This document shows, one piece after another, positions 21,604-62,803 of a stretch of 64,000 bases of DNA; the first letter of the stretch is position 1; each line of letters opens with the position of its first letter. A program made the translations under genes and the position numbers. The notes under the pieces are model-generated. The model was given only the letters and a program-made list of their open reading frames with translations. It was not told the DNA's origin and searched no databases. The DNA lies in the NCBI GenBank assembly GCA_020847735.1, contig JADLBL010000019.1:1-64000 (forward strand), written 5' to 3'. The DNA comes from Candidatus Eisenbacteria bacterium (GTDB lineage: Bacteria > Eisenbacteria > RBG-16-71-46).

Positions 21604-22886
21604 GCGTCACCGGCGACCGGCAGGGAGTGCTCGCGCTGGGCGGCGTGCCGCTCGACGAACTGCTCGCGTCGCTGCGCCGGCGGGACCCCGCGGCGCGCGC
21701 GTTCTGGGCCTACGACCTCGACGCCTTCACCGCCCGCGCTCATCGGCTGCTCGCCGCGCTCGCGCCGCTCGGCGCGCACGCCGCGTACGCGCTCAAGGCG
21801 AACGGCCTGCCGGCGCTGGCGCGCACGGCCGCCGCCGCCGGGCTCGACGCCGACGCCGGCTCGCTCGGCGAGCTCGCGCTCGCCGGGCACGCGGGCTTCG
21901 GTCCCGGGCGGCGGACGTTGAGCGGCAACGGCCGTACGCGCGAGGAGGCCGACTGGGCGGCGACGCACGGCGTCGCGTTCGTCAGCGCCGATCACGTCGG
22001 CGAACTGGATCTGCTCGAGGATGCCGCGGCGCGATCGGGCGCGAAGTTGCGGGTCGCGCTGCGGGTCAACCCGGGAATCTTCACCCCGGGCCACCGTCAC
22101 GTCGCGACCGGTCACCTCGACGCCAAGTTCGGCGTCGAGCCCGGCGAAGCGCTCGAGGCCTGGGCGTCGCGCGCGCGCTGGCCGAACCTGCGGCTCGACG
22201 GACTGCACCTGCACGTCGGCTCGCAACTGCTCGAGACGGCGCCGCTCGAGGGCGCGGCGCGCTTCGCCCTCGAGCTCGCGCGCCAGTCCGAATCGCGCGG
22301 CGCGCCGCTCGCGGCCGTCAACCTCGGCGGCGGTTTCGGCGTGGACTACGAGCGGGGCGGCGACGGTTTCCCGCTCGAGCGCCACCTCGGCGACCTGGCG
22401 CGTGCCCTGGCGGGAGGCGGGCTCGAATGGCGTTTCGAGCCGGGCCGCTGGCTGGTCGCGCCCGTCGGCGTGCTGGTGGCCGAGGTGTCGTGGGTCAAGC
22501 TGCGGCGCGGAAGCGCCGGCGAGCAGCGCTTCGTCGTGCTCTCGGCCGGAATGAACGACCTGCTCCGGCCGGCGCTCTACGGCGCCCGGCATCGCATCGT
22601 ACCGGTGCGGCCCCGTCCGGGCGCCGGGTCGCCGGCCATCGTCGTCGGTCCGGTGTGCGAGAGCGGCGACACGTTCAGCGCCGACGCGACGCTTCCACCG
22701 CTCGAGCGCGGCGATCTGGTCGCCCTGCTCGACGCCGGCGCCTACGGGTCGGCGATGTCGTCGAACTACAACGGGCGCGGCCGCCTCGCCGAAATCGCCG
22801 TGACGGGCGGGCGGGCGCGACTCGTGCGGGCCGCCGAATCCCCGGCCGAACTGCTGGCGCGCCAGACCGACCTTCCGCTGTCGTAG
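21600..22886 (+). CDS. lysA: Diaminopimelate decarboxylase-type PLP enzyme
   Basis: The 428-residue fold-III enzyme has the PLP lysine in AAYALKANG (K66), the phosphate-binding glycines in NLGGGFGVDY, and the C-terminal CESGDTF that supplies the catalytic Cys across the dimer. Late GAYGSAMSSNYN matches LysA closely. It removes CO2 from meso-diaminopimelate to give lysine. The GTG at 21600 overlaps the mobA stop by GTGA. Related decarboxylases of this fold act on other D-amino-type substrates, but the last motifs favour LysA. A 7-bp hairpin follows before the convergent regulator gene. Confidence 0.88.
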   Translation: MSVTGDRQGVLALGGVPLDELLASLRRRDPAARAFWAYDLDAFTARAHRLLAALAPLGAHAAYALKANGLPALARTAAAAGLDADAGSLGELALAGHAGFGPGRRTLSGNGRTREEADWAATHGVAFVSADHVGELDLLEDAAARSGAKLRVALRVNPGIFTPGHRHVATGHLDAKFGVEPGEALEAWASRARWPNLRLDGLHLHVGSQLLETAPLEGAARFALELARQSESRGAPLAAVNLGGGFGVDYERGGDGFPLERHLGDLARALAGGGLEWRFEPGRWLVAPVGVLVAEVSWVKLRRGSAGEQRFVVLSAGMNDLLRPALYGARHRIVPVRPRPGAGSPAIVVGPVCESGDTFSADATLPPLERGDLVALLDAGAYGSAMSSNYNGRGRLAEIAVTGGRARLVRAAESPAELLARQTDLPLS

Positions 22887-50464: not shown

Positions 50465-50503
50465 GCCGGCCTGCGAAGCAGCTTCCCGAACCGCGGGGAC
50501 GAC

Positions 50504-51442
50504 ATGGACGATCGCGCCCGATTCGACGAGTTTGCCCGGCTCGCCACCGAGCAGCGCAATCCGCGCACGATGGACCTCGACACGCTCGATGTGCCCGAGC
50601 TGCTCGCGCGCATCAACGCCGAGGACCGGACGGTCGCGGACGCCGTCGCGCGGGAGCTGCCGTGGATCGCCCGTGCGGTGGACCTGATCGTGGCGTCCTT
50701 CCGCGCCGGGGGCCGGCTCGTGTATGCGGGCGCGGGCACCAGCGGAAGGCTCGGCGTGCTGGATGCGTCCGAATGCCCGCCGACCTTCGGCTCGGACCCC
50801 GACCAGGTCGTGGGCGTCATCGCCGGCGGCTACACCGCAGTCGTCCGCGCGGTCGAGGGCGCCGAGGACCGGCGCGAGGAGGGCGAGAAGGCCATGAACG
50901 ATCTCGGCGTCGGCCCCGAGGACACGGTCGTGGGCGTCGCCGCCAGCCGCCGGACCCCGTTCGTCGTCGCCGCGATCGAGCGGGCCCGCGAGCGCGGCGC
51001 GCGCACCGTGTACGTGACGTGCACGCCGCGCGAGGAGTTCCAGCTTCCGGTGGACGTGGCGATCTGCCCGCTCGTCGGCCCCGAGGTCCTGATGGGCTCG
51101 ACCCGCATGAAGGCGGGAACCGCGCAGAAGCTGGTGCTGAACATGCTCACGACCGCCGCGTTCGTCCGCTCGGGCAAGGCGTACGAGAACATGATGGTGG
51201 ACCTGATGGCGAACAGCCAGAAGCTGGTCGAGCGCAGCCGACGGACGGTCATGGCGGTGACCGGCGTCGAATACGACGCCGCCGCCCGGGCGATCGAGGC
51301 CGCGGGACGGAGCGTCAAGACCGCGATCGTGATGCTGAAGCGCGACTGCGATCGCGACGAGGCGGAACGGCTGCTGCGGCAGACCGGCGGCTTCGTGCGC
51401 CGCGCCATCGAGTCCGCGCACCGGGAGGACGGCGGCGCGTGA
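50504..51442 (+). CDS. murQ: N-acetylmuramic acid 6-phosphate etherase
   Basis: The 312-residue SIS-domain enzyme cleaves the lactyl ether of MurNAc-6-phosphate to give GlcNAc-6-phosphate. It contains TEQRNPRTMDLDTL, YAGAGTSGRLGVLDASECPPTF (with the catalytic Glu in the SEC part), AASRRTPFVVAAI and GSTRMKAGTAQKL. All are standard for MurQ. It opens the operon murQ, binding lipoprotein, anmK, spoIID-like, and overlaps the next gene by GTGA. Confidence 0.96.
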   Translation: MDDRARFDEFARLATEQRNPRTMDLDTLDVPELLARINAEDRTVADAVARELPWIARAVDLIVASFRAGGRLVYAGAGTSGRLGVLDASECPPTFGSDPDQVVGVIAGGYTAVVRAVEGAEDRREEGEKAMNDLGVGPEDTVVGVAASRRTPFVVAAIERARERGARTVYVTCTPREEFQLPVDVAICPLVGPEVLMGSTRMKAGTAQKLVLNMLTTAAFVRSGKAYENMMVDLMANSQKLVERSRRTVMAVTGVEYDAAARAIEAAGRSVKTAIVMLKRDCDRDEAERLLRQTGGFVRRAIESAHREDGGA

Positions 51443-52650
51443 AGCGCATCGGCCTCGGCCTGGCGATCCTGTTCGCGGCCGGTTGCGCGCCGGCGGCCCG
51501 GCCGCCGCAGGAGGTCGTCTTCTGGCAGTTCGCAGAGCCGGCGGCGCTCGAGCCGGTGGTGCGGCGGTTCGAGTCGGAAAATCCCGGACTGCGGGTGCGG
51601 CTCGTGCGCGTCGCGCCGGCGGCGCTCGCCGAGTCCCTCGATGCGGCGCTCGCGCTGGGCGCCCCGCCGGACCTTTGCGAGCTGGACGGCGATTCCATGC
51701 GCGCGTACCTCGACTCGGGCGAGCTGAGCGACTGGAGCGCGGGCGTCGCCGACCAGCGCGATTCGCTGCTCGGCTGGGAGGCGTGCCGGGTCGGCGTCGC
51801 GCTGTACGGCATGCCCTGGCGGCTTTCGCCGCGCGTGCTCTACTGGAACCGGGATCTGTTCGCGCGCGCCGGGCTGCCGCCCGCCAGGCCGCCCGCGACC
51901 TGGGACGCGCTCGTCGCCGCGGCACGGCGCATCGAGCGCCTCGGTGGGGGCGTTCACGGCTACGGTCTCCCGAGCACCGACACGCTCGCCATGGTGCCCG
52001 AGTTTCTCTCGCTCGCGTGGACGAACGGCGGCGAACTGCTGTCCGCCGCCGGGGACTCCGTGCGCCTCGACTCGCCGGCGAACGAACAGGCGCTCGAGCT
52101 CGGCGTGCGGCTGGGCAGGGTGGGGCTGCAGGCCGACTCGGATTTCCTCGACCGCGAGTTCGCCGCCGGTCGCCTCGGTCTGCGCATCGCCGGTTCCCGG
52201 CTGGCCACGTGGCTCGATCACGAGGCGCCGGAACTGAAGTACGGACTCGCGCCGCTCCCCGCACGGGCGGCGGCCGACAGCGTCGTGCCGTTCGCCGACG
52301 TCAGCGTGCTCGCCAGCTTCACGCGCTCGAGACACAAGGAGCATGCGCTGCGCCTGGCCCGCTATCTGGCGCGGCCGGAGAACTCGCTCGAAATCTACGC
52401 GGCCGCCGCCGGCGGCGTGCCCGCGAACTCGGGCGCCGACACGCTGGCGTGGTTCCGCTCGCACCCGCGAGACGAGGTGCTGGCCTCGCAGGCCGCGCGC
52501 TCGCGCTTCGCGCCCGCGGTGCCAGGCTGGCGGCGCATGGAGCACGCGCTCGGCGACGAGCTGATCCGCGCTCTGCGCGGTGAGCAGTCGCCCGACAGCG
52601 CCCTCGCGCACGCGAGCGCACGCCTGGCGGCGATCGTGGGCAGGAGGTAG
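51439..52650 (+). CDS. ABC-type sugar-binding lipoprotein (family 1 solute-binding protein)
   Basis: The 403-residue protein has a lipoprotein signal ending LFAAGC (Cys at 16), then the type-1 extracellular solute-binding fold. It shows VVFWQFAEPAALEPVVRRFE at the start, GMPWRLSPRVLYWNRDLF in the hinge region, and ASFTRSRHKEHALRLARYL late. Family members bind oligosaccharides and deliver them to ABC permeases. No permease or ATPase is in the window. Lying between murQ and anmK with overlapping ends, it probably binds a muropeptide sugar such as anhydro-MurNAc or its disaccharide. That ligand is inference. Confidence 0.87.
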   Translation: MKRIGLGLAILFAAGCAPAARPPQEVVFWQFAEPAALEPVVRRFESENPGLRVRLVRVAPAALAESLDAALALGAPPDLCELDGDSMRAYLDSGELSDWSAGVADQRDSLLGWEACRVGVALYGMPWRLSPRVLYWNRDLFARAGLPPARPPATWDALVAAARRIERLGGGVHGYGLPSTDTLAMVPEFLSLAWTNGGELLSAAGDSVRLDSPANEQALELGVRLGRVGLQADSDFLDREFAAGRLGLRIAGSRLATWLDHEAPELKYGLAPLPARAAADSVVPFADVSVLASFTRSRHKEHALRLARYLARPENSLEIYAAAAGGVPANSGADTLAWFRSHPRDEVLASQAARSRFAPAVPGWRRMEHALGDELIRALRGEQSPDSALAHASARLAAIVGRR

Positions 52651-52653
52651 CGC

Positions 52654-53880
52654 ATGGTCCACGGGTCCGACGCTCTCGCCGGCCTGCGAAGCTATCGCAC
52701 GGCGGACGAGCACCTGGTGATCGGCCTCATGACGGGCACGTCCGCCGACGCCGTGGATGCCGCGCTCGTGCGCTTTCGCGGCGCCGGACTCGCGGCGACC
52801 GGCGAACTGGTCGCCTATCGCGAGCAGCCGTTCGAGGATCCGCTGCGTCGCGAGGTGCTCGAGGTGGCGGGCTGCGAGGAGCTGCCCCTCGAGCGTTTCA
52901 TGCGCCTCGACGCGGAGCTCGGCGAAGCCTACGCGCGGGCGGTCCATGCACTGCTGCGGCAGGCGCAGATCCGCGCGGCCGAGGTCGCCGCGGTGGGTTC
53001 GCACGGGCAGACCATCCGGCACCTGCCGCGCGCCGCGAACGGCGGGCGGGCGCTGACGCTGCAGGTCGGATCGGCCGCGGTGCTCGCCGAACGCACGGGC
53101 ATCCTGGTCGTCTCCGACTTCAGGACCCGCGACACCGCGGCCGGGGGCGAAGGCGCTCCGCTCGTGCCGGTGGCCGACTGGTGGCGATTCCGCTCGGAAC
53201 GCGAGTCGCGCGTGCTTCTGAACCTGGGCGGCATGGCGAACGTCACCCACCTGCCGCGGGGCGCGGGACTCGATCAGGTGGTGGCCTTCGATACCGGGCC
53301 GGGCAACGCCGTGCTCGACGGACTCATGCGAGTCTCGACGGGTGGGCTCGCGCATCGCGACGATGGCGGGCAGCTCGCCGCGCACGGGCGGGTGAACCAC
53401 GGCCTGCTCGAGGAACTGCTGGCGGACCCGTTCTTTCAGACCGAGCCGCCGCGCTCGACCGGGCGCGAGCGCTTCGGCGACGCCTACGCGATCCGGCTGC
53501 AAGAGATCGGCGAGCAGCTGGGGCTCTCACTCGAGGACCTGCTTGCGACGGCGGCGGAACTGACGGCCATCACCGTCGCCGACGCGATCGGCCGCTTTCT
53601 CTCGCCGCGCGGCGTGGAGGCCGTCTACGTCAGCGGTGGCGGCGTGCGCAATGCGACGCTCATGGTCGCGCTGCGCCGCAGGCTCGAAGGGGTGACGGTG
53701 AGGAAGCTCGACGACCTGGGCGTCGCCGCGGACGCGAAGGAGGCGCTCGCCTTCGCGCTGCTCGCCCATCTGACGCTGTCGGGCGAGGCGGGAAACGTGC
53801 GCGGCGCGACGGGAGCGGAGGCGGCCGTGGTGCTCGGTCACATCTCACCGGGTGCGCTGACCGGCGGAGCGTCCGCGTGA
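52654..53880 (+). CDS. anmK: Anhydro-N-acetylmuramic acid kinase
   Basis: The 408-residue kinase phosphorylates and opens 1,6-anhydro-MurNAc to MurNAc-6-phosphate, the substrate of the neighbouring MurQ. It contains GLMTGTSADAVDAAL (ATP-binding), GSHGQTIRHLP, NLGGMANVTHLP, FDTGPGNAVLD and VYVSGGGVRN. The first 20 residues are extra compared with the usual start at the GLMTGTS strand. It follows the lipoprotein gene by three bases and overlaps the spoIID-like gene by GTGA. Confidence 0.96.
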   Translation: MVHGSDALAGLRSYRTADEHLVIGLMTGTSADAVDAALVRFRGAGLAATGELVAYREQPFEDPLRREVLEVAGCEELPLERFMRLDAELGEAYARAVHALLRQAQIRAAEVAAVGSHGQTIRHLPRAANGGRALTLQVGSAAVLAERTGILVVSDFRTRDTAAGGEGAPLVPVADWWRFRSERESRVLLNLGGMANVTHLPRGAGLDQVVAFDTGPGNAVLDGLMRVSTGGLAHRDDGGQLAAHGRVNHGLLEELLADPFFQTEPPRSTGRERFGDAYAIRLQEIGEQLGLSLEDLLATAAELTAITVADAIGRFLSPRGVEAVYVSGGGVRNATLMVALRRRLEGVTVRKLDDLGVAADAKEALAFALLAHLTLSGEAGNVRGATGAEAAVVLGHISPGALTGGASA

Positions 53881-55166
53881 AGCCGCTTCGGCGCCTCGCC
53901 GTCGCGCTCGCGCTCGCGGCCCTCTCCGGGGCGGGAGCGCACGCCGGCGACGCGCGCGCCGAATCGCCGCAGGGACCCCGGTTCGACATCGGGCTCGTGG
54001 TGGACGCGGACTCGCTCACCGTCGAGCCGCTCGTGACGGCGCGACTCTCGTGGAGCGAGCAGGGCGCACCCGGGCGAACCGCCGAGCTGCGCGAGCCGCT
54101 GCGTCTGCGCGCCTCGGGCACGCAACTGCTGGTCGAGCCCGTGGGTCGGCCCCGGGCCGTGCCGCTTGCGGTCCTGGGGCCGGCGGACACGCTGTGGATC
54201 GGGGACGAGGGCTTCGAGGCGGGAGAGGCGCCTCGCCTGCGATGGAGCGGAAAGACGTGGCGCGGCCGTTTCAAGGCGTTCCTGTCGCCGCGCGGCCGGC
54301 TCACGCTCGTCACCCGGCTCGACCTCGAGCCCTATCTGCTCGGAGTGGTTCCCGGGGAGATCGGCGCGCTGCGGGATTCGCTGATCGAAGCCGGGCGCGC
54401 GCAGGCGATCGCGGCCCGCAGCTACTCGCTCTTCTATCGCGGCCGCCGCGGCGCCGAGGGTTTCGACCTCTATGCGACGGTCGAGGACCAGCTCTACTCG
54501 CCGGTCGAGAGCGAGCGGCCGCTGGCCACTCGCTGCGTGGAGAGCACGCGTGGCAGCGTCTGCGAGTCGCAGGGCCAGCCGATCCGCGCGAACTACTGTT
54601 CCACCTGCGGCGGCATCACCGCCGACGTGTGGGAAGCCTGGCCGACGGATCCCCGCCCGTACCTGCTCTCGCGCGCGGATCGAGGGACCGGCGAAGGAGA
54701 CTACTGCGCGCTCTCGCCCCAGTATCGCTGGCGCGAGGAATGGCCGGTCGCGCAGTTCGCCGCGACGCTCGCGAAATACGGCCCGCCGCAGGGCGTGCCG
54801 ATGCCGGCCGGAGGAGTCGGGAACGTGGTCGGGGTCGAAGTCCTGAGCCGATCGCATTCGGCCCGCGTCTGGCGTCTCCGGGTCACGACCACCACCGGTG
54901 TCGTGGACGTACCCGCGTACGTCCTGCGGCAGGTCCTGAGGCGCCCGAGCGCCCCGAACGGCATCCTTCGCTCGAACCTCTTCAAGATCGCGCTTCGCGG
55001 CGATGCGACGGGGCGGCCCGTGTCGGTCGTCGCGAGCGGCGCCGGCTCGGGCCACGGTGTCGGCCTCTGCCAGACGGGCGCGCTGGCGATGGCGCGCGCG
55101 GGAGCGAGCGCGGACAGCATCCTGTCGCACTACTACGCCGGAACGACGCTCACGAAACTCTGGTGA
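53877..55166 (+). CDS. SpoIID/LytB-domain protein (amidase enhancer type)
   Basis: The 429-residue exported protein has a signal peptide (about 1-23) and a beta-rich N-terminal region. The SpoIID domain (about 140-429) shows LEPYLLGVVPGEIG, ARSYSLFYRGR, YCSTCGGITADVWEAW and the closing SGAGSGHGVGLCQTGALAMARAG. SpoIID-type proteins are lytic transglycosylases that act on denuded glycan strands and release anhydro-MurNAc ends. That fits its place behind anmK: it may produce what the operon then recycles. The catalytic Glu of SpoIID is plausibly in VPGEIG. Confidence 0.9.
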   Translation: MKPLRRLAVALALAALSGAGAHAGDARAESPQGPRFDIGLVVDADSLTVEPLVTARLSWSEQGAPGRTAELREPLRLRASGTQLLVEPVGRPRAVPLAVLGPADTLWIGDEGFEAGEAPRLRWSGKTWRGRFKAFLSPRGRLTLVTRLDLEPYLLGVVPGEIGALRDSLIEAGRAQAIAARSYSLFYRGRRGAEGFDLYATVEDQLYSPVESERPLATRCVESTRGSVCESQGQPIRANYCSTCGGITADVWEAWPTDPRPYLLSRADRGTGEGDYCALSPQYRWREEWPVAQFAATLAKYGPPQGVPMPAGGVGNVVGVEVLSRSHSARVWRLRVTTTTGVVDVPAYVLRQVLRRPSAPNGILRSNLFKIALRGDATGRPVSVVASGAGSGHGVGLCQTGALAMARAGASADSILSHYYAGTTLTKLW

Positions 55167-55675: not shown

Positions 55676-55903
55676 ATGAAGCGCAAGAAGGGCGAGGACG
55701 GCGGCGAGTTCGACGTCTTCGGAGAAGACGACGCGAACGCATACGGCGAGGAAGGCATCGAGGAACAGGAAGCCGACCTCTACGAGGACGACATCGAGGA
55801 GGAGTTCGACGAGGAGGACTCGGATTTCGACGAGGACTTCGACGAGGACGACTCGTTCGACGAGGAAGAAGACTTCGACGGCCTCGTGGACGACGAGGAG
55901 TAG
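55676..55903 (+). CDS. Very acidic small protein of unknown function
   Basis: The 75-residue protein starts with the basic KRKK and is then almost entirely Asp/Glu (41 of 75 residues), with regularly spaced Phe in an (E/D)2-3-F-D pattern (EEEFDEEDSDFDEDFDEDD). It is probably disordered. GAGGGTGAC precedes the ATG, and there is a near-consensus promoter, so high expression is likely. Acidic Phe-spaced tails occur in RNA polymerase delta-like subunits and DNA-mimic or chaperone-like proteins, but no family can be named. speD follows after 81 bases and may be on the same transcript. Confidence 0.75.
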   Translation: MKRKKGEDGGEFDVFGEDDANAYGEEGIEEQEADLYEDDIEEEFDEEDSDFDEDFDEDDSFDEEEDFDGLVDDEE

Positions 55904-55984: not shown

Positions 55985-56428
55985 ATGACGGGATTCGGGC
56001 CTCACCTGCTGGTGGACGGCTACGGCTGCGACAAGGAGCGCCTGACCGACCTGAACCTGGTCTACCGCGTGCTCGAGGAGCTTCCGCCGCGCATCGGCAT
56101 GACCAAGATCATGCCGCCCTACGTCTTCAAGTACAGCGGGCTCAAGCCGGAGGACTGGGGGCTTTCGGGTTTCGTCCTGATCGCCGAGAGCCACGTCAGC
56201 GTCCACACCTTTCCCGAGAAGACCTACGCCAGCGTGGACGTCTTCTCGGTCAAGCCGTTCGAGACCGAGTTCGCGGTCGAGTACCTCAAGTCGGCGTTCG
56301 CCATGAGCCGGACCGAATGCCGGGTGCTGGATCGCGGTACGGAGTTCCCGAAGGAGCTTGGCGGCGCCACCGGCATGGTCCGGGCCCAGCGACGGCGCGT
56401 CGGAAAGCCGTCCGCACCAACCGCCTGA
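55985..56428 (+). CDS. speD: S-adenosylmethionine decarboxylase-like pyruvoyl enzyme with altered active site
   Basis: The 147-residue protein has the SpeD fold and the self-cleavage site AESHVSVHTFPE. Ser69 would become the pyruvoyl group; H74 and S61 match the processing residues. The proton-donor Cys of AdoMet decarboxylase (Cys83 of the Thermotoga enzyme) falls on Val89 (VDVFSVKPF). True SpeD reads FTCG there, so the substrate may not be AdoMet; pyruvoyl-dependent arginine or ornithine decarboxylases have evolved from this family. No spermidine synthase is adjacent. The C-terminus is basic and longer than usual. A perfect 14-bp hairpin follows. Confidence 0.8.
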   Translation: MTGFGPHLLVDGYGCDKERLTDLNLVYRVLEELPPRIGMTKIMPPYVFKYSGLKPEDWGLSGFVLIAESHVSVHTFPEKTYASVDVFSVKPFETEFAVEYLKSAFAMSRTECRVLDRGTEFPKELGGATGMVRAQRRRVGKPSAPTA

Positions 56429-56440
56429 GCCCGTTCGCTT

Positions 56441-56475
56441 CGACGGCCCCGGCCCGAACCCGGCCGGGGCCGTCG
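56441..56475 (+). terminator. Perfect 14-bp GC hairpin after speD
   Basis: CGACGGCCCCGGCC (56441-56454), loop CGAACCC, GGCCGGGGCCGTCG (56462-56475), twelve bases after the speD stop and 29 before the next start. No T tract. A terminator is likely. Confidence 0.6.
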
Positions 56476-56504
56476 CGTTCCCACGCACCGTTCCGGAGAA
56501 ATGG

Positions 56505-57716
56505 ATGCCGCACGAAACCGCGGACCGCCTCACCTCGCGCCCGACGGCCCGCCTGATCCTGCGCCGCGGCGAGGACCGCCGCGTGCGCGGCGGTCACCCG
56601 TGGATCTTCAGCAATGAAGTGGCGGCCTGGGAGGGCGTGGTCGAGGATGGCGGGCTCGCCGAGATCACGGACCCGCGCGGCGCGTTCCTCGGCGTCGCCT
56701 ACGTGAACCGTCACAGCCTGATCTGCGCCCGGGTCCTGACGCGCCGTCGGGACGGGATCGACACCGAGTTCTTCGTGCGGCGGCTCGAGCGCGCACGGCG
56801 CCTACGCGCGGCCGTCTACCCCGAGGAAGCGGCCGTGCGGCTGGTCTACGGCGAGTCGGACCAATTGCCGGGGCTGGTCGTGGACCGATATGGCGAGTGG
56901 CTCGCCGTTCAGGTGCTTACGCTGGGTATCGAGCGCCGGCTCGACGAGGTGCGCGACGCGCTCGAGCGCGTGTTCGCGCCGCGAGGCGCGGTTTACGTCG
57001 GCGATTCGCCGATGCGCGCGCTCGAGGGGCTGGATCGCCGCCGCGAGATCTGGTGGGGCGACGTTCCCGAACGTGCGCGCGTCGAAGTGGGAGGGTTCGC
57101 GCTCGACGTGGACCTGCTCGGAGGTCAGAAGACCGGGCTCTTCCTGGACCAGCGCGAGAACCGGCGGCGAGCCGAACGCCGGGCGTCCGGAAAGCGCGCG
57201 CTCGACTGCTTCTGCTACCAGGGGGAGTGGGCCCTGCACCTGGCGCGGGGCGGAGCGACCAGCGTGCTCGCGGTGGATTCGAGCGAGCCGGCGCTGGCCG
57301 CCGCGGCGGAGAACGCCGCGCGCGCGGGCTACGCCGATCGCATCGCCTTCCGCCGGGCCTCCGCCTTCGACGAACTCCGCCGCCTCGAGCGCGAGGGCGA
57401 ACGCTTCGGGATCGTCGTGCTGGATCCGCCGGCGCTGGTCAAGTCGCGTCGTGCCGTCGCGGCCGGCGCTCGGGCCTATCGCGAACTCAACCGGGCGGCG
57501 ATGAGCCTGCTCGAGGAGGACGGCGTGCTCGTGACGTGCTCGTGCAGCCATCACCTGGACGATCCGCTGTTCCGCCAGGTGCTGCTCGAATCGGCGAGGC
57601 TGGCCCGGCGGCCGATGCGCGTTCTCGAGTGGGCGGGCGAAGCGCCGGACCACCCCGAACTGCTGGCGGTGCCCGAGACCCACTACCTCAAGTGCGCCGT
57701 GCTGCAGGCGCTCTGA
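56505..57716 (+). CDS. rlmI: RlmI-like 23S rRNA (cytosine-C5) methyltransferase
   Basis: The 403-residue protein has an N-terminal PUA domain (RRVRGGHPWIFSNEVAAWEG, about 15-90), a linking EEHEE-like domain with GESDQLPGLVVDRYG, and a class I methyltransferase domain (about 195-403). The latter shows TGLFLDQRENRR, LDCFCYQGEWALH and VVLDPPALVKSR, followed by TCSCSHH with the catalytic cysteine. This is the RlmI/YccW layout. GGAGAA lies just before the ATG at 56505. The rRNA position methylated cannot be deduced. Confidence 0.9.
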   Translation: MPHETADRLTSRPTARLILRRGEDRRVRGGHPWIFSNEVAAWEGVVEDGGLAEITDPRGAFLGVAYVNRHSLICARVLTRRRDGIDTEFFVRRLERARRLRAAVYPEEAAVRLVYGESDQLPGLVVDRYGEWLAVQVLTLGIERRLDEVRDALERVFAPRGAVYVGDSPMRALEGLDRRREIWWGDVPERARVEVGGFALDVDLLGGQKTGLFLDQRENRRRAERRASGKRALDCFCYQGEWALHLARGGATSVLAVDSSEPALAAAAENAARAGYADRIAFRRASAFDELRRLEREGERFGIVVLDPPALVKSRRAVAAGARAYRELNRAAMSLLEEDGVLVTCSCSHHLDDPLFRQVLLESARLARRPMRVLEWAGEAPDHPELLAVPETHYLKCAVLQAL

Positions 57717-57740: not shown

Positions 57741-58025
57741 TCAGCTTCCCGCCGCGCCCTTCTTGAGCTCGTCCACGTAGTTGAGCCGCAGGTCGGTCAC
57801 GACCTGGGTCAGCACGCGCTGCTCGTCGGCCTCGAGGTTCCCCTTCGTGCGCGCTTCGAGGGCGCCCAGCGTGTCGATCGTGTTCTTGGCCGCGTCGAGA
57901 TTGCGCTCGAGCTTGCCCGTCATCGGGTTCATCAGCTTGCCGAGCGCGACCATGGCCGCCTGCTGCAGGCCGAGCACGAGTTGCAGGAAGAGTGCGGCGT
58001 CGCGTGAGGGTGTGGCGTCCGTCAT
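57741..58025 (-). CDS. DUF1844 family protein
   Basis: The 94-residue helical protein carries FLQLVLGLQQAAMVALGKLM near its start and AAKNTIDTLGALEARTKGNL, the conserved core of DUF1844. These small proteins are widespread outside model bacteria and have no known function. The ATG overlaps the mazG stop by ATGA, so the two are made together; a link to nucleotide clean-up is possible only by association. Confidence 0.85.
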   Translation of the reverse strand: MTDATPSRDAALFLQLVLGLQQAAMVALGKLMNPMTGKLERNLDAAKNTIDTLGALEARTKGNLEADEQRVLTQVVTDLRLNYVDELKKGAAGS

Positions 58026-58858
58026 GTCGGCTCTCCGGCAGGCGGCGCGCCGGCCGCCTGCATGCGGGCGAGGCGCTTGGCCTCCTCCCAGTAGCGGTCC
58101 ATCTCTTCGAGGGTGGCCTGCGACGGTGCGCGGCCGGTCTCCGCGAGCCGCCGCTCGACGTGCAGGAAACGTTCGCGAAAGCGGCGCAAAGTGGCGCGCA
58201 ACTCGCGTTCGGGATCCACCCGCAGGTGGCGCGCGAGGTTCACGACCGCGAACAGCAGGTCACCGATTTCGTGCGCCGTGTCGGGGGTCGCGTCGCCCTC
58301 CGACAGCGAACGTTCGACCTCGGCCGTCTCCTCGCGGATCTTCGCGACCGGGCCGGCGGTCGAGGGCCAGTCGAAGCCGACGGCCGCGGCCTTTTCCTGG
58401 AGCCGGTAGGCGGCCACCAGCGCGGGCAGCCCCCTGGGCTGCTCTCCGAGCAGCGATGCCGGCGCGTCGCCGGAGCGCTTCTCGGCCTTCTTGATCTCCT
58501 GCCACTGGCGATACGCGGCGCCGCCGTCCTGCACCACCGCGTCGCCGTACACGTGCGGATGGCGGCGGATCAGCTTGTTCGCCGCGCGCTCGAGCGCCTC
58601 GGCGAGCCCGATGCCGCGCTGCTCGCCGAGCAGTTCGAGGCAGAAGACCACCAGGAACCCGAGGTCGCCGAGCTCCTCGGCCGCGTGATCGGCGTCGCCG
58701 GAGGCGATCGCTTCGACGGCTTCGACCGATTCCTCGGTCAGGTAGGGCGTCATCGTCTCGAGCGTCTGCTCGCGGTCCCACGGGCATCCGTCGGGGCCGC
58801 GAAGCCGGCGGCAGACAGCGACGAGCTGCTCGAATGCGGTGCGCTCACGGTCGGTCAT
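58022..58858 (-). CDS. mazG: Nucleoside triphosphate pyrophosphohydrolase MazG
   Basis: The 278-residue protein has two MazG domains. The first carries CPWDREQTLETMTPYLTEE, then EELGDLGFLVVFCLELL with the metal-binding E-x-x-E-D set. The second has VGFDWPSTAGPVAKIREETAEVE and HEIGDLLFAVVNLARHL. It hydrolyses NTPs to NMP and pyrophosphate. The MTDRERT start at 58858 was preferred over an upstream ATG because a -10-like TAAGGT (58872-58867) ends eight bases before it. It leads the two-gene unit mazG-DUF1844. Confidence 0.94.
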   Translation of the reverse strand: MTDRERTAFEQLVAVCRRLRGPDGCPWDREQTLETMTPYLTEESVEAVEAIASGDADHAAEELGDLGFLVVFCLELLGEQRGIGLAEALERAANKLIRRHPHVYGDAVVQDGGAAYRQWQEIKKAEKRSGDAPASLLGEQPRGLPALVAAYRLQEKAAAVGFDWPSTAGPVAKIREETAEVERSLSEGDATPDTAHEIGDLLFAVVNLARHLRVDPERELRATLRRFRERFLHVERRLAETGRAPSQATLEEMDRYWEEAKRLARMQAAGAPPAGEPT

Positions 58859-58994
58859 GGAGCGCGACCTTAGCCGACCCGGCCCACGCGTGCACACCTG
58901 GGTCCGCTTCTCGAACGCGCGCCGCAGCGGCGGCGAGGGCCTCGCGGACGGCTCCGCCCGGTGCGCTCGTTGCCGGCGGGCCGGCGCGCGCGAA

Positions 58995-59024
58995 TTGCGC
59001 GTCGCCCTCGCCGCTGGCTATTGT
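58995..59024 (+). promoter_or_regulatory. Promoter of the alr-deo operon
   Basis: TTGCGC (58995-59000), 18 bases, TATTGT (59019-59024), 53 bases before alr. Confidence 0.45.
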
Positions 59025-59077
59025 GGCCGGCCCGGCGTCGCACGGATCGCGTACGACCGGTGGAGTGGAGAAACGAC

Positions 59078-60307
59078 ATGTCAATGCCCCTGGTGACGTG
59101 GGTGGAGGTGGACCTGGACCGGTTCGCGGCGAACCTGCGCGTGATTCGGACCGAGGTGCGCGATGCCTGCGAGCTGCTCCTGGTCGCCAAGGCGGACGCG
59201 TACGGTCACGGGGCCCGCGAGATGGCGGCGGCGGCCGAGCGCGAAGGGGTGTCGCAACTCGGCGTCGCGACCCTGCACGAGGGCGTACAGCTTCGCATGG
59301 CCGGCTGCCGGTTACCGATCGTCGCGCTTTCGCCCCTGCTGACCGCCGAGATCGACGATGCGGTGGAGCACGGCATTGACCCGACCGTGGCCGACCAAGC
59401 TTTCGCCGGTGAACTCTCGGCCGCGGCCCGGCGGAGCGGACGCCCGGTGCGTTTCCACGTCGAGATCGACACGGGCATGGGCCGCATCGGTGTCCGCGAG
59501 GCGGACGCCGAGGAGTTCGTCGCGCGGGTGTCCGCGCTTCCCGGACTTCGGCTGGCGAGCGTCTATACGCACTTTCCCGACGCCGACGCGGAGGATCTGT
59601 CCTTCGCCCGCGGCCAGGTCGGGCGCTTTCGGGCCATCGTCGAGCGGCTGGCCGCCCGCGGTCTGCGCCCGCCCCAGGTGCACGCGTCGAACAGCGCCGG
59701 CACGATGAACCTTCCCGAAGCGCGCTTCGATGTCGTGCGGATCGGGCTCGTCGCGTATGGCGTGCATCCGCCCCACGACGCCGCCCGACTCGCGCTCGCT
59801 CCGGTCATGTCGCTGCGAAGCCGGCTCGTGCAGGTCCGCGACCTCCCGGCCGGAACGCCGATCAGCTACGGGCGCTCGTACGTGACGTCGCGGCCGAGCC
59901 GCATCGGCGTCGTGCCCGTGGGCTACGGCCACGGCTACTCCTGGCTGCTGTCGAACCGCGGACAGATGCTGGTGCGCGGGCGCCGCGCGCCGATCGTGGG
60001 CCGGGTGACGATGGACCTGACGATGCTCGACCTGACGGACATCGCGGGCGTCGGCGTCGGCGACGAAGTGGTCCTGTTCGGCGAGCAGAACGGCGAAGAG
60101 CTCCGCGTCGAGGAAGTCGCCGCCTGGAGCGAGACGCTCGCCTACGAGATCATGTGCACGCTCGGCAAGCGGGTGGCCCGCCTGTATCGCAGCCAGGGAC
60201 GGGCCGTGCGGGTGACGACGCTCGTCGGCGAAAGACCGGAGTGGACCGCCGCCGCGGACGACTACCTGCGCCAGCGCGACTTCGCGGCGGCGGGCGGAGG
60301 AGCCTGA
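59078..60307 (+). CDS. alr: Alanine racemase
   Basis: The 409-residue enzyme interconverts L- and D-alanine for the cell wall. The PLP lysine lies in LLVAKADAYGHG (K38). EIDTGMGRIGV and SAGTMNLPEARFDVVRIGLVAYG follow in the barrel. The C-terminal domain supplies the catalytic Tyr in ISYGRSYV, then VGYGHGYSW and VTMDLTMLDLTD. The usual GYADG reads GYGHG here. GGAG lies 11 bases before the ATG. It is first in a run with deoB two bases downstream, an unusual partner for nucleoside-degradation genes. Confidence 0.95.
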   Translation: MSMPLVTWVEVDLDRFAANLRVIRTEVRDACELLLVAKADAYGHGAREMAAAAEREGVSQLGVATLHEGVQLRMAGCRLPIVALSPLLTAEIDDAVEHGIDPTVADQAFAGELSAAARRSGRPVRFHVEIDTGMGRIGVREADAEEFVARVSALPGLRLASVYTHFPDADAEDLSFARGQVGRFRAIVERLAARGLRPPQVHASNSAGTMNLPEARFDVVRIGLVAYGVHPPHDAARLALAPVMSLRSRLVQVRDLPAGTPISYGRSYVTSRPSRIGVVPVGYGHGYSWLLSNRGQMLVRGRRAPIVGRVTMDLTMLDLTDIAGVGVGDEVVLFGEQNGEELRVEEVAAWSETLAYEIMCTLGKRVARLYRSQGRAVRVTTLVGERPEWTAAADDYLRQRDFAAAGGGA

Positions 60308-60309
60308 GC

Positions 60310-61476
60310 ATGCGCACCTTTCTCATCGTGCTCGACGGCGTCGGCATCGGCGAGTTGCCGGACGCGGACCGTTACGGCGACCGGGGCGCGAACACGCTCG
60401 GCCACGTGGCCGAGGCGGTCGGAGGATTGCGCCTGCCGGTGCTCGAGTCGCTCGGGCTGGGGAGGCTTGCCCGCGTCTCCGGGGTGCAGCCCGTCGCGGA
60501 CGCACGCGGCGCCCGCGCCCGTCTCGCCGAGAAGTCGGCGGGAAAGGACAGCACCACCGGGCACTGGGAGATGATGGGGCTGGTGCTCGAGCGTCCGTTC
60601 CCGACCTATCCGGACGGTTTTCCCACGGTGCTGCTCGACCGGTGGGCGGAACGTGTCGGCCGGGGCTGGCTCGGAAACTGCGCGGCTTCGGGCACGGAAA
60701 TCATCGCGCGGCTCGGCGCGCGTCACGTCGAGACCGGCCGGTTCATCGTCTACACGTCGGCCGACTCGGTCTTCCAGATCGCGGCGCACGAGCGGATCGT
60801 GCCGCTGGAGGAACTCTACGCCGCGTGCCGCGCGGCGCGGGAGCTGCTGACGGGCGAGCATGCCGTCGGACGGGTGATCGCCCGGCCCTTCGTCGGCGAG
60901 CAGGGCGCGTGGACGCGCACGGCGAACCGCCGCGACTTCTCGCTCGAGCCCTTCGCGCCGACCGTTCTCGACCGGCTGACCGAGAACGGGCACCGCGTCG
61001 TCACGGTCGGCAAGGTGGACGACCTGTTCGCGGGCCGCGGCGTCGGCGACGCGATCCACACCCACAGCAACGCCGAGGGACAGGAGGTGCTGCTCGACCT
61101 GGCGAAGAAGCCCGGCGAAGGGCTGGTGTTCGCCAACCTCGTGGACTTCGACACGCAGTTCGGTCACCGCAACGACCCGGCCGGGTTCGCGCGGGCGCTC
61201 GAATCGTTCGACGAGACGCTCGGGAGGTTTCTCGGGCGCCTGCGGGACGACGAAATGGTCTGGGTGACCGCGGACCACGGCAACGATCCCACGACGCCCG
61301 GCACCGACCACACGCGCGAGTACACGCCGTTCCTGGCGGCCGGGCCGCGCGTGCGTCCGGGCGTGGACCTCGGCACCCGGTCGACGTTTGCCGACCTCGG
61401 TGCGACACTGTCGGACCAGTTCGGTCTCGCGCCGGGGCGCCACGGCGCGAGCTTCCTTCAGGAGCTGCGCGCGTGA
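60310..61476 (+). CDS. deoB: Phosphopentomutase
   Basis: The 388-residue alkaline-phosphatase-fold enzyme moves phosphate between C1 and C5 of (deoxy)ribose. It has [15 protein letters not shown] (metal Asp), [11 protein letters not shown], the nucleophile region [31 protein letters not shown] and [11 protein letters not shown]. These are all the DeoB metal ligands. It supplies deoxyribose-5-phosphate to DeoC. It overlaps cdd by GTGA. Confidence 0.96.
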
Positions 61477-61874
61477 AGCCCAGGGAACTCATGGCCGAGG
61501 CCGAGAAGGCCCGGAAATCCTCCTACTCGCCGTACTCGCGCTTCGCCGTCGGCGCCGCGCTGCTGACGGGCTCGGGCCGCGTCGTGCGCGGCTGCAACGT
61601 CGAGAACGCGTCCTTCGGCCTGTCCTGCTGCGCCGAACGCACCGCGGTCTTCAAGGCCGTGAGCGAGGGCGAGCGGGATTTCGTGGCCATCGCGGTCACG
61701 GCGGGCCCGGGACGCGGCTCGGCGCCCTGTGGCGCCTGTCGCCAGGTGCTGGACGAGTTCGCCCCGGGGATCTGGGTGCACTTCCGCGACGCGCGCGGCT
61801 CCATGGTCCGCCGGCGGCTCACCGCTCTGCTCGCCGACGCCTTCCGATTCCCGACCCCGCGGAGAAGGCCGTGA
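61473..61874 (+). CDS. cdd: Cytidine deaminase
   Basis: The 133-residue enzyme deaminates cytidine and deoxycytidine. It shows [13 protein letters not shown], the zinc and proton-shuttle motif [16 protein letters not shown] with the catalytic Glu, and [12 protein letters not shown]. It is the short, tetrameric type. In the operon it turns deoxycytidine into deoxyuridine for the phosphorylase. GTGA overlaps tie it to deoB and deoC. Confidence 0.95.
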
Positions 61875-62803
61875 GCCGAGAACGCGATCAGCTGGTCGAA
61901 GTCATCACCCGCCAGGTGCTGCAGGCGCTGCACGGCGTGCCCGCGCAGGGCGGTACTTCCGCGCACGCACCCGCCGCCCCGCTCGCGCCCGGAGAGGTCG
62001 CCCACGATCCGGCGACCTGCGAGCGTTGCCGCAACTGGGGCGTCGCCGGCGTGCGCGATCCGGCCGAGACGCGAGTGCTGGCCGAGGCGGGCGCCTCGCG
62101 GGTCGTCGCCACCATGGGCTACTGCCCCGCGTCCGACGGCCTCGCCTCGCTCATCGATCACACGCTCCTCAAGCCCGACGCGACGCGTGAGGAGATCGAG
62201 CAGCTTTGCCGTGAAGCGGCGCAGTTCTGCTTCGCCTCGGTGTGCGTGAACCCGAACTGGGTGGCGCTCTGCCGCGAGCGCCTGCGCGGCACGGGCGTCA
62301 AGGTTTGCACGGTGATCGGGTTCCCGCTCGGAGCGCACCTGCCGGACATCAAGGCCTACGAAGCCCGCCGTGCGGTCGAGCAGGGCGCCGAGGAAGTGGA
62401 CATGGTGATCAACATCGGCGCGCTCAAGTCCCGTGACTACGCGCTCGTCGAGCAGGACATGCTCGGGGTCGTCCAGGCCGCCGGGAAGGGCGTCATCGTC
62501 AAGGTGATCCTCGAGACCGCGCTGCTCACGCGCGACGAGAAGGTCATGGGCTGCACGCTCGCCAAGGCGGCCGGCGCCGACTACGTGAAGACCTCGACGG
62601 GTTTCGCGGGCGGTGGGGCGACGGTCGAGGACGTGCAGTTGATGCGCGAGACCGTCGGGCCCGAGATGGGGGTCAAGGCTTCGGGTGGCGTGCGCACGCG
62701 CGACGACGCGGAAAAGATGGTGGCCGCCGGCGCGACGCGGCTGGGCGCTTCGGCCGGCGTCAAGATCGTCCGGGGCGAGACGCCCGCCGGAAAGGGCTAC
62801 TGA
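61871..62803 (+). CDS. deoC: Deoxyribose-phosphate aldolase with an N-terminal extension
   Basis: The catalytic domain starts near residue 94 ([12 protein letters not shown]) and has [36 protein letters not shown], the Schiff-base lysine in DYVKTSTGF, and KASGGVRT. It splits deoxyribose-5-phosphate into glyceraldehyde-3-phosphate and acetaldehyde. Usual enzymes are about 220 residues; this one has 310. The extra N-terminus has a short amphipathic helix ([16 protein letters not shown], residues 7-22), a Gly/Pro/Ala linker, and a small CxxC segment ([10 protein letters not shown]50 and C53). The helix-plus-linker resembles cargo peptides of bacterial microcompartments. The GTG at 61871 overlaps cdd by GTGA. 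Confidence 0.93.

Follow-up and report, generated by a model that had tools for sequence, protein, structure and literature searches.

How pyruvoyl ADC and ODC enzymes come to replace PLP enzymes was the question of Li et al. (2023; PMC10407285), who studied homologues of the class 1b S-adenosylmethionine decarboxylase (AdoMetDC), SpeD, that act as arginine decarboxylases (SpeDA). Ser63, His68 and Cys83 are reported there as essential for self-processing and also as involved in catalysis. All three were expected to be conserved in the AdoMetDC, SpeDA and SpeDC groups alike, and all three are marked in the group logos; Gln, Thr, Phe and Tyr are named as diagnostic for SpeDC. In the human and T. 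cruzi AdoMetDC the Cys is described as the general acid (PMC5201418). The SpeD-SpeDC protein of Victivallis vadensis, in which a degraded SpeDC domain is joined to a working AdoMetDC, offers a described case of decay, that domain being reported not to self-cleave (PMC10407285).

We analysed a window of 64,000 nucleotides from a Candidatus Eisenbacteria bacterium (contig JADLBL010000019.1 of assembly GCA_020847735.1) that encodes one SpeD homologue with Val at the Cys83 position. Unlike the SpeDC domain of V. vadensis it is a stand-alone protein, and the Cys is the one catalytic residue that it has lost. The explanation that we consider the best, and rather probable, is that it is a redundant SpeDA caught during its replacement by the PLP-dependent SpeA, probably with impaired decarboxylation.

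SpeD of the window and its catalytic residues

The window SpeD scored 103.7 bits with Pfam AdoMet_dc (PF02675; cut-off 25) and was the sole PF02675 protein of its genome. It matched the SpeD of T. maritima (1tlu) in a phmmer search with an E-value of 1.9e-12. An AlphaFold2 model built from 17 sequences, the window SpeD and 16 relatives, had a mean pLDDT of 85.5, and Foldseek gave T. maritima SpeD (1vr7) as its best solved structure (E-value 1.1e-10, TM 0.68/0.84). The phmmer alignment, with residues counted from the printout, equates S55, S63, H68 and C83 of T. maritima with S61, S69, H74 and V89 of the window protein. This confirms the preliminary description, made from the sequence of positions 56180-56260, in which S61, E68-S69 and H74 were said to be kept and Val to stand at the Cys83 position; the Val89 codon lies inside that span and the S61 codon just beyond it (Table 1). 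The window SpeD shares with T. maritima SpeD its fold and the equivalents of S55, E62-S63 and H68, but it is only 30% identical in the structural match, lacks the Cys and a SpeE partner, and belongs to a separate clade. The further statement that self-cleavage should work is not safe, as Cys83 is reported to be essential for self-processing too (PMC10407285).

Table 1. Features of the speD region, with positions in the window
Feature	Position	Strand	Basis or remark
Upstream block: murQ-like, anmK-like, SpoIID-like	50468..55166	+	same order in family genomes where assembled; named by resemblance
Short, very acidic protein, upstream neighbour	55676..55903	+	tblastn matches in genus-mates G020 and G023
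speD homologue, class 1b AdoMetDC fold, SpeDA-type subfamily	55985..56428	+	intact ORF, 147 aa
Ser61 codon (T. maritima Ser55 equivalent)	56165..56167	+	alignment; Ser in 88/88 others
Glu68-Ser69, predicted self-cleavage site; Ser69 the would-be pyruvoyl group	56186..56191	+	Ser in 88/88 and Glu in 87/88 others
His74 codon (T. maritima His68)	56204..56206	+	alignment; His in 88/88 others
Val89 codon, gtc (T. maritima Cys83 position)	56249..56251	+	Cys in 88/88 others
Short speD-rlmI gap, the place of speB in relatives	56429..56507	+	synteny
rlmI-like 23S rRNA methyltransferase, conserved downstream neighbour and locus anchor	56499..57716	+	start codon not fixed
Downstream block: orf94 (-), mazG-like (-), alr-, deoB-, cdd- and deoC-like (+)	57744..62803	- and +	synteny; named by resemblance

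Named genome contigs were scanned for SpeD relatives, and of the 354 obtained the best 80 were kept. With duplicates and two distant SpeDs (L013 and L014) taken out, 89 distinct subfamily sequences were left. The Val89 column holds Cys in all the 88 other distinct subfamily sequences examined, both genus-mates (G020 and G021) included, and L013 and L014, which stand outside this count, have Cys as well. Within the phylum, where a SpeD match was obtained in 14 of 47 genomes, Cys is present in the 11 orthologues (60-78% identity) and also in 5 paralogues (50-56%). As far as these sequences reach, Val89 is a private and later event in one species. Conservation reaches at least 98% in 40 columns, of which the window SpeD keeps 38 and departs at two (I71V and C89V).

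The whole protein has also changed faster in this lineage. Compared with family outgroups, lineage-specific amino acid changes over 144 sites of SpeD numbered 15 in the window, 3 in G020 and 6 in G021, and over the 2065 sites of eight neighbour genes 81, 55 and 53, respectively. The rate of change of the window SpeD was about 2.7 times that of the neighbour genes (p 0.001), while the SpeD proteins of the genus-mates showed no difference from the controls (p 1.0 and 0.28). In a stricter contrast, with ratios of 15:9 for SpeD and 81:108 for the controls, the acceleration was weaker (p 0.055). The YN00 program returned no dN/dS value for the window branch and values for three pairs (one of 14 SpeD pairs and two control pairs); the missing values most likely reflect saturated dS.

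These data bear on whether the Val codon could be an assembly or sequencing error, the real gene having Cys. The Val comes from a single genome, and near-identical records may be missing from the sets compared. However, the change from TGC, found in the 10 of 10 orthologues with codons printed, to the GTC of the window takes two base changes and leaves the frame intact, codons 91 and 93 too are unlike those of G020 and G021, and the protein carries the 15 lineage-specific changes given above. A single base-calling error behind GTC is unlikely because of the two-base difference and the changed neighbouring codons, and we give very little probability to an error of any kind.

Ancestral substrate of the subfamily

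Genes surrounding speD were studied at the best 80 of the 354 loci, using six SpeB seeds for the neighbour search. The agmatinase gene speB was found at 4 kb or less from speD in 64 of the 80, mostly as the next gene, the agmatine deiminase gene aguA near speD in four, and none of the sought neighbours in 12. Two of the 64 speB-linked loci (L082 and L089) also have a deoxyhypusine-synthase-like speY in the order speD-speY-speB, and the three genes are likewise in a row in G017. A SpeE-like gene lies about 4 kb away at four loci (L133, L139, L142 and L147). A search for SpeA (TIGR01273) in 40 subfamily genomes from outside Eisenbacteria, which covers 40 of the 74 such loci, detected it in none. 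At least two PF02675 proteins were present in 22 of these 40 genomes, and in the 18 with a single SpeD an AdoMetDC function is possible. The second SpeD copies that were fetched with their flanks were beside speE in 11 of 13 cases and were similar to T. maritima SpeD. In a tree of 63 proteins the subfamily of the window (44 proteins) was split with support 100/99 from the speE-linked SpeDs and the assayed AdoMetDCs, which were those of T. maritima and phage S-PM2; branches in this tree are long, and the midpoint root serves only for drawing.

Li et al. chose their ADC (SpeDA) candidates on these same features, and the candidates then proved to be arginine decarboxylases (PMC10407285). Because the subfamily agrees with them in this, arginine is most likely its ancestral substrate and, judging from the genomic context, it most likely constitutes an arginine decarboxylase (SpeDA) family. 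The N1-aminopropylagmatine route (PMC11107197) was considered as another reason for the linkage to speB and was rejected: as described, it needs SpeE, which is absent from the genome of the window, and it also needs an ADC, SpeA being absent from 40 of the 40 genomes, so that the case for an ADC stands.

An ordinary AdoMetDC lacking the Cys is an identity to which we give almost no weight. The window SpeD does pass the AdoMetDC equivalog model TIGR03330, narrowly (81.6 bits against a cut-off of 75.65), and it keeps the Pro of the HTFP motif, although the Pro by which Li et al. distinguish AdoMetDC from ADC may be at another position (PMC10407285). Nevertheless, the T. maritima-type second SpeD is the one beside speE at 11 of 13 loci, and the absence of SpeE together with the tree led us to reject this identity. 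The preliminary description had noted that no spermidine synthase gene is near; this was confirmed, and SpeE over the cut-off is absent genome-wide. The sole Spermine_synth match of the genome (G000:C15:81045-81383) belongs to a 1361-aa frame of the 'fused MFS/spermidine synthase' type that is far under the SpeE cut-off. The protein thus has neither the Cys83 equivalent nor the SpeE partner of a class 1b AdoMetDC, and the grouping with proven AdoMetDCs that would have spoken against a changed substrate was not seen.

With the SpeDA proteins described in PMC10407285 the window SpeD has in common that it is a class 1b SpeD homologue with the Ser63 and His68 equivalents (S69 and H74), that it is the single, anomalous SpeD of a genome with no SpeE over the cut-off, that enzymes leading from agmatine to putrescine are at hand (AguB-AguA in its own genome and speB beside speD in relatives), and that its relatives lack SpeA and occur in speD-speB or speD-speY-speB clusters. 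It differs from them in the Val at the Cys83 position, in the loss of speB and in the full-length canonical SpeA of its own genome. Since the equivalent of Cys83 is Val89, we file it as a SpeDA descendant and not as a functional SpeDA.

It had been proposed that the protein may be a neofunctionalised enzyme. One half of this holds: descent from an arginine-decarboxylating SpeD is supported by the speB linkage, the speD-speY-speB clusters, the lack of SpeA in the 40 genomes, the separate clade and the lack of SpeE in the own genome. The other half, which took Cys to Val as the sign of the new function, does not, as relatives with the same context keep Cys and Val is private to a genome with SpeA and AguB-AguA. 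Because the tested SpeDA and SpeDC proteins are reported to keep the Cys (PMC10407285), its replacement is not a mark of neofunctionalisation. In a family in which speD tends to be lost where SpeA is present, what the change points to is a lost function. More generally, a SpeD that lacks a catalytic residue does not have to have gained a new activity.

SpeA and the speD locus in the family

In the Candidatus Eisenbacteria family to which the genome of the window belongs, speD has been inherited vertically, and the order murQ, anmK, spoIID-like, speD, rlmI, mazG and following genes (names by resemblance) is kept. Between speD and rlmI, speB is found in seven of the eight family genomes with SpeD and without SpeA, the eighth being G031, whose contig ends. 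It is missing from this place in the window, G020 and G021, and no remnant of it was detected in the gap of the window by tblastn with six SpeB sequences (best E-value 1.5). A search for the rlmI anchor in 13 genomes was successful in 11, and nine regions were then retrieved. In the SpeA-bearing genomes G019, G032, G033 and G036 speB is still beside rlmI and speD is gone; in G036, speB is preceded by a stub that resembles speD codons 1-17 and then meets a stop. The speD locus was not assembled or not found in G022, G029, G034 and G035. The acidic gene upstream of speD, whose product has no Pfam match, also adjoins rlmI in the genus-mate G023, with speD and speB both absent from between the two.

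The genome of the window has a full-length SpeA (L066, G000:C8:6284-8164) that scored 739 bits against a cut-off of 624, a SpeY for homospermidine biosynthesis (519.6 bits, cut-off 450) and an aguB-aguA pair with strong matches, which are yet under the curated NCBIfam equivalog cut-offs for AguA and AguB. PAD_porph (AguA) was found in the five genomes of the genus of the window and in none of the 15 of the rest of the family. A second PLP decarboxylase, with an Orn_Arg_deC_N domain at 21729-22460 of the window, is probably a diaminopimelate decarboxylase by its match pattern.

Both SpeD and SpeA are present in three of the 20 family genomes (G000, G020 and G021), SpeD only in eight, SpeA only in seven (two of these being partial matches) and neither in G022 and G029. 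Leaving out the genus of the window, SpeA occurs in none of the eight genomes with SpeD and in six of the seven without it (Fisher p 0.0014), whereas over all 20 genomes, genus included, the contrast is not significant (p 0.07); both p-values are a guide only, related genomes having been treated as independent. The window SpeA is 84% identical to those of its genus-mates and 86% to those of G032 and G019; identities range from 82 to 86% within the family and from 44 to 47% outside it, L054 giving no match. Only identities were used, as the mis-framed row L054 (G006) spoils the root of the SpeA tree and L049 is shortened. SpeA may have been transferred or replaced within the family. In the collection of papers searched, none joined Eisenbacteria and polyamine.

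The family appears to show traffic in the reverse direction to that treated by Li et al., a PLP enzyme replacing a pyruvoyl enzyme at one syntenic locus. The states of this locus are speD-speB, SpeA with speB but no speD, a speD stub, full deletion and a catalytic point loss, and with them the stepwise replacement of a pyruvoyl by a PLP enzyme becomes testable in the family.

Taking these data together, we propose the following order of events. An ancestral SpeDA-type pyruvoyl enzyme would, most likely, have converted L-arginine to agmatine for a SpeB-SpeY (homospermidine) route. In the genus of the window the adjacent speB would then have been deleted with SpeA and AguB-AguA on board, which would make speD redundant. 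C89V and the fast evolution of SpeD would have followed in the species of the window, where decarboxylation by SpeD may be expendable, since SpeA would now make agmatine. Ser69 may still become the pyruvoyl group, given that S61, E68 and H74 are kept, although the missing Cys may slow even self-cleavage. Arginine could still bind, and with no thiol to protonate the decarboxylated carbon its turnover should be weak or could end in transamination of the cofactor. This last outcome is what work on human C82 mutants reportedly leads one to expect; papers on transamination and Cys82 in AdoMetDC were looked for, and none turned up. The window SpeD is probably a dying enzyme heading for deletion. Nevertheless, redundancy with SpeA does not quickly kill speD, as G020 and G021 have SpeA and yet keep an intact, Cys-bearing speD. 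Because the window protein is not generally degraded, with its frame intact and 38 of the 40 conserved columns kept, the loss appears to be recent or some function persists.

The AaxB protein of Chlamydia trachomatis has a fold non-homologous to that of SpeD. It provides a precedent, in that a missense change in one lineage inactivated this pyruvoyl arginine decarboxylase, reportedly with no sign of relaxed selection; its change differs in having blocked self-cleavage (PMC2720952).

The same preservation of the protein could be read as a sign that the enzyme is still an active decarboxylase of arginine or another amino acid, with another proton donor or water in place of the Cys and with adaptive changes near the site (I71V, I73V, S80T, C89V, A91P and D93E). 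The intact ORF, the other catalytic residues and the accelerated change confined to the lineage of the window are all consistent with this. However, none of the 88 relatives does without the Cys, which is described as the general acid in AdoMetDC (PMC5201418) and as essential for processing (PMC10407285), and the genome already has a full-length SpeA with AguB-AguA, so we regard an active enzyme as unlikely. It is similarly improbable that a Cys-free SpeD enzyme has arisen in which another group gives the proton, or that it has become a decarboxylation-dependent aminotransferase or deaminase in a new role after SpeA took over agmatine.

A protein that lacks the catalytic Cys but keeps its fold and most of the conserved positions could also be a pseudoenzyme with a non-catalytic role. 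It might bind or tune a polyamine enzyme in the manner of prozyme, which acts on the trypanosome AdoMetDC, and an AdoMetDC paralogue that is itself catalytically dead and yet activates its partner is on record (PMC5201418). But the window SpeD, as the sole PF02675 protein, has no live SpeD to partner in its genome and related genomes delete speD outright, which makes such a role quite doubtful. The redundant SpeDA under replacement by SpeA is the reading that we retain.

Other SpeD homologues

A second SpeD paralogue, present in five genomes of the class (L015-L019, in G026, G017, G028, G037 and G024), is 50-56% identical to the window SpeD, keeps the Cys and forms its own clade; speB, speE, speY and aguA were not detected near it in the stretches fetched. 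At the DPANN loci L090, L144 and L149, reading of the ORFs by eye found no obvious polyamine neighbours. The uncultured 735-kb phage LR756501.1 (L197) encodes a SpeD of this subfamily that is 47.5% identical to that of the window. Finally, Microcystis phage MaAM05 (L196, MW495066.1) has a speH_2-speH_1-speE-speB cluster with both kinds of SpeD side by side, and it may encode a whole route from arginine to spermidine. Its speH_1 falls in the subfamily of the window in the tree and has HSFI where the family has HTFP.
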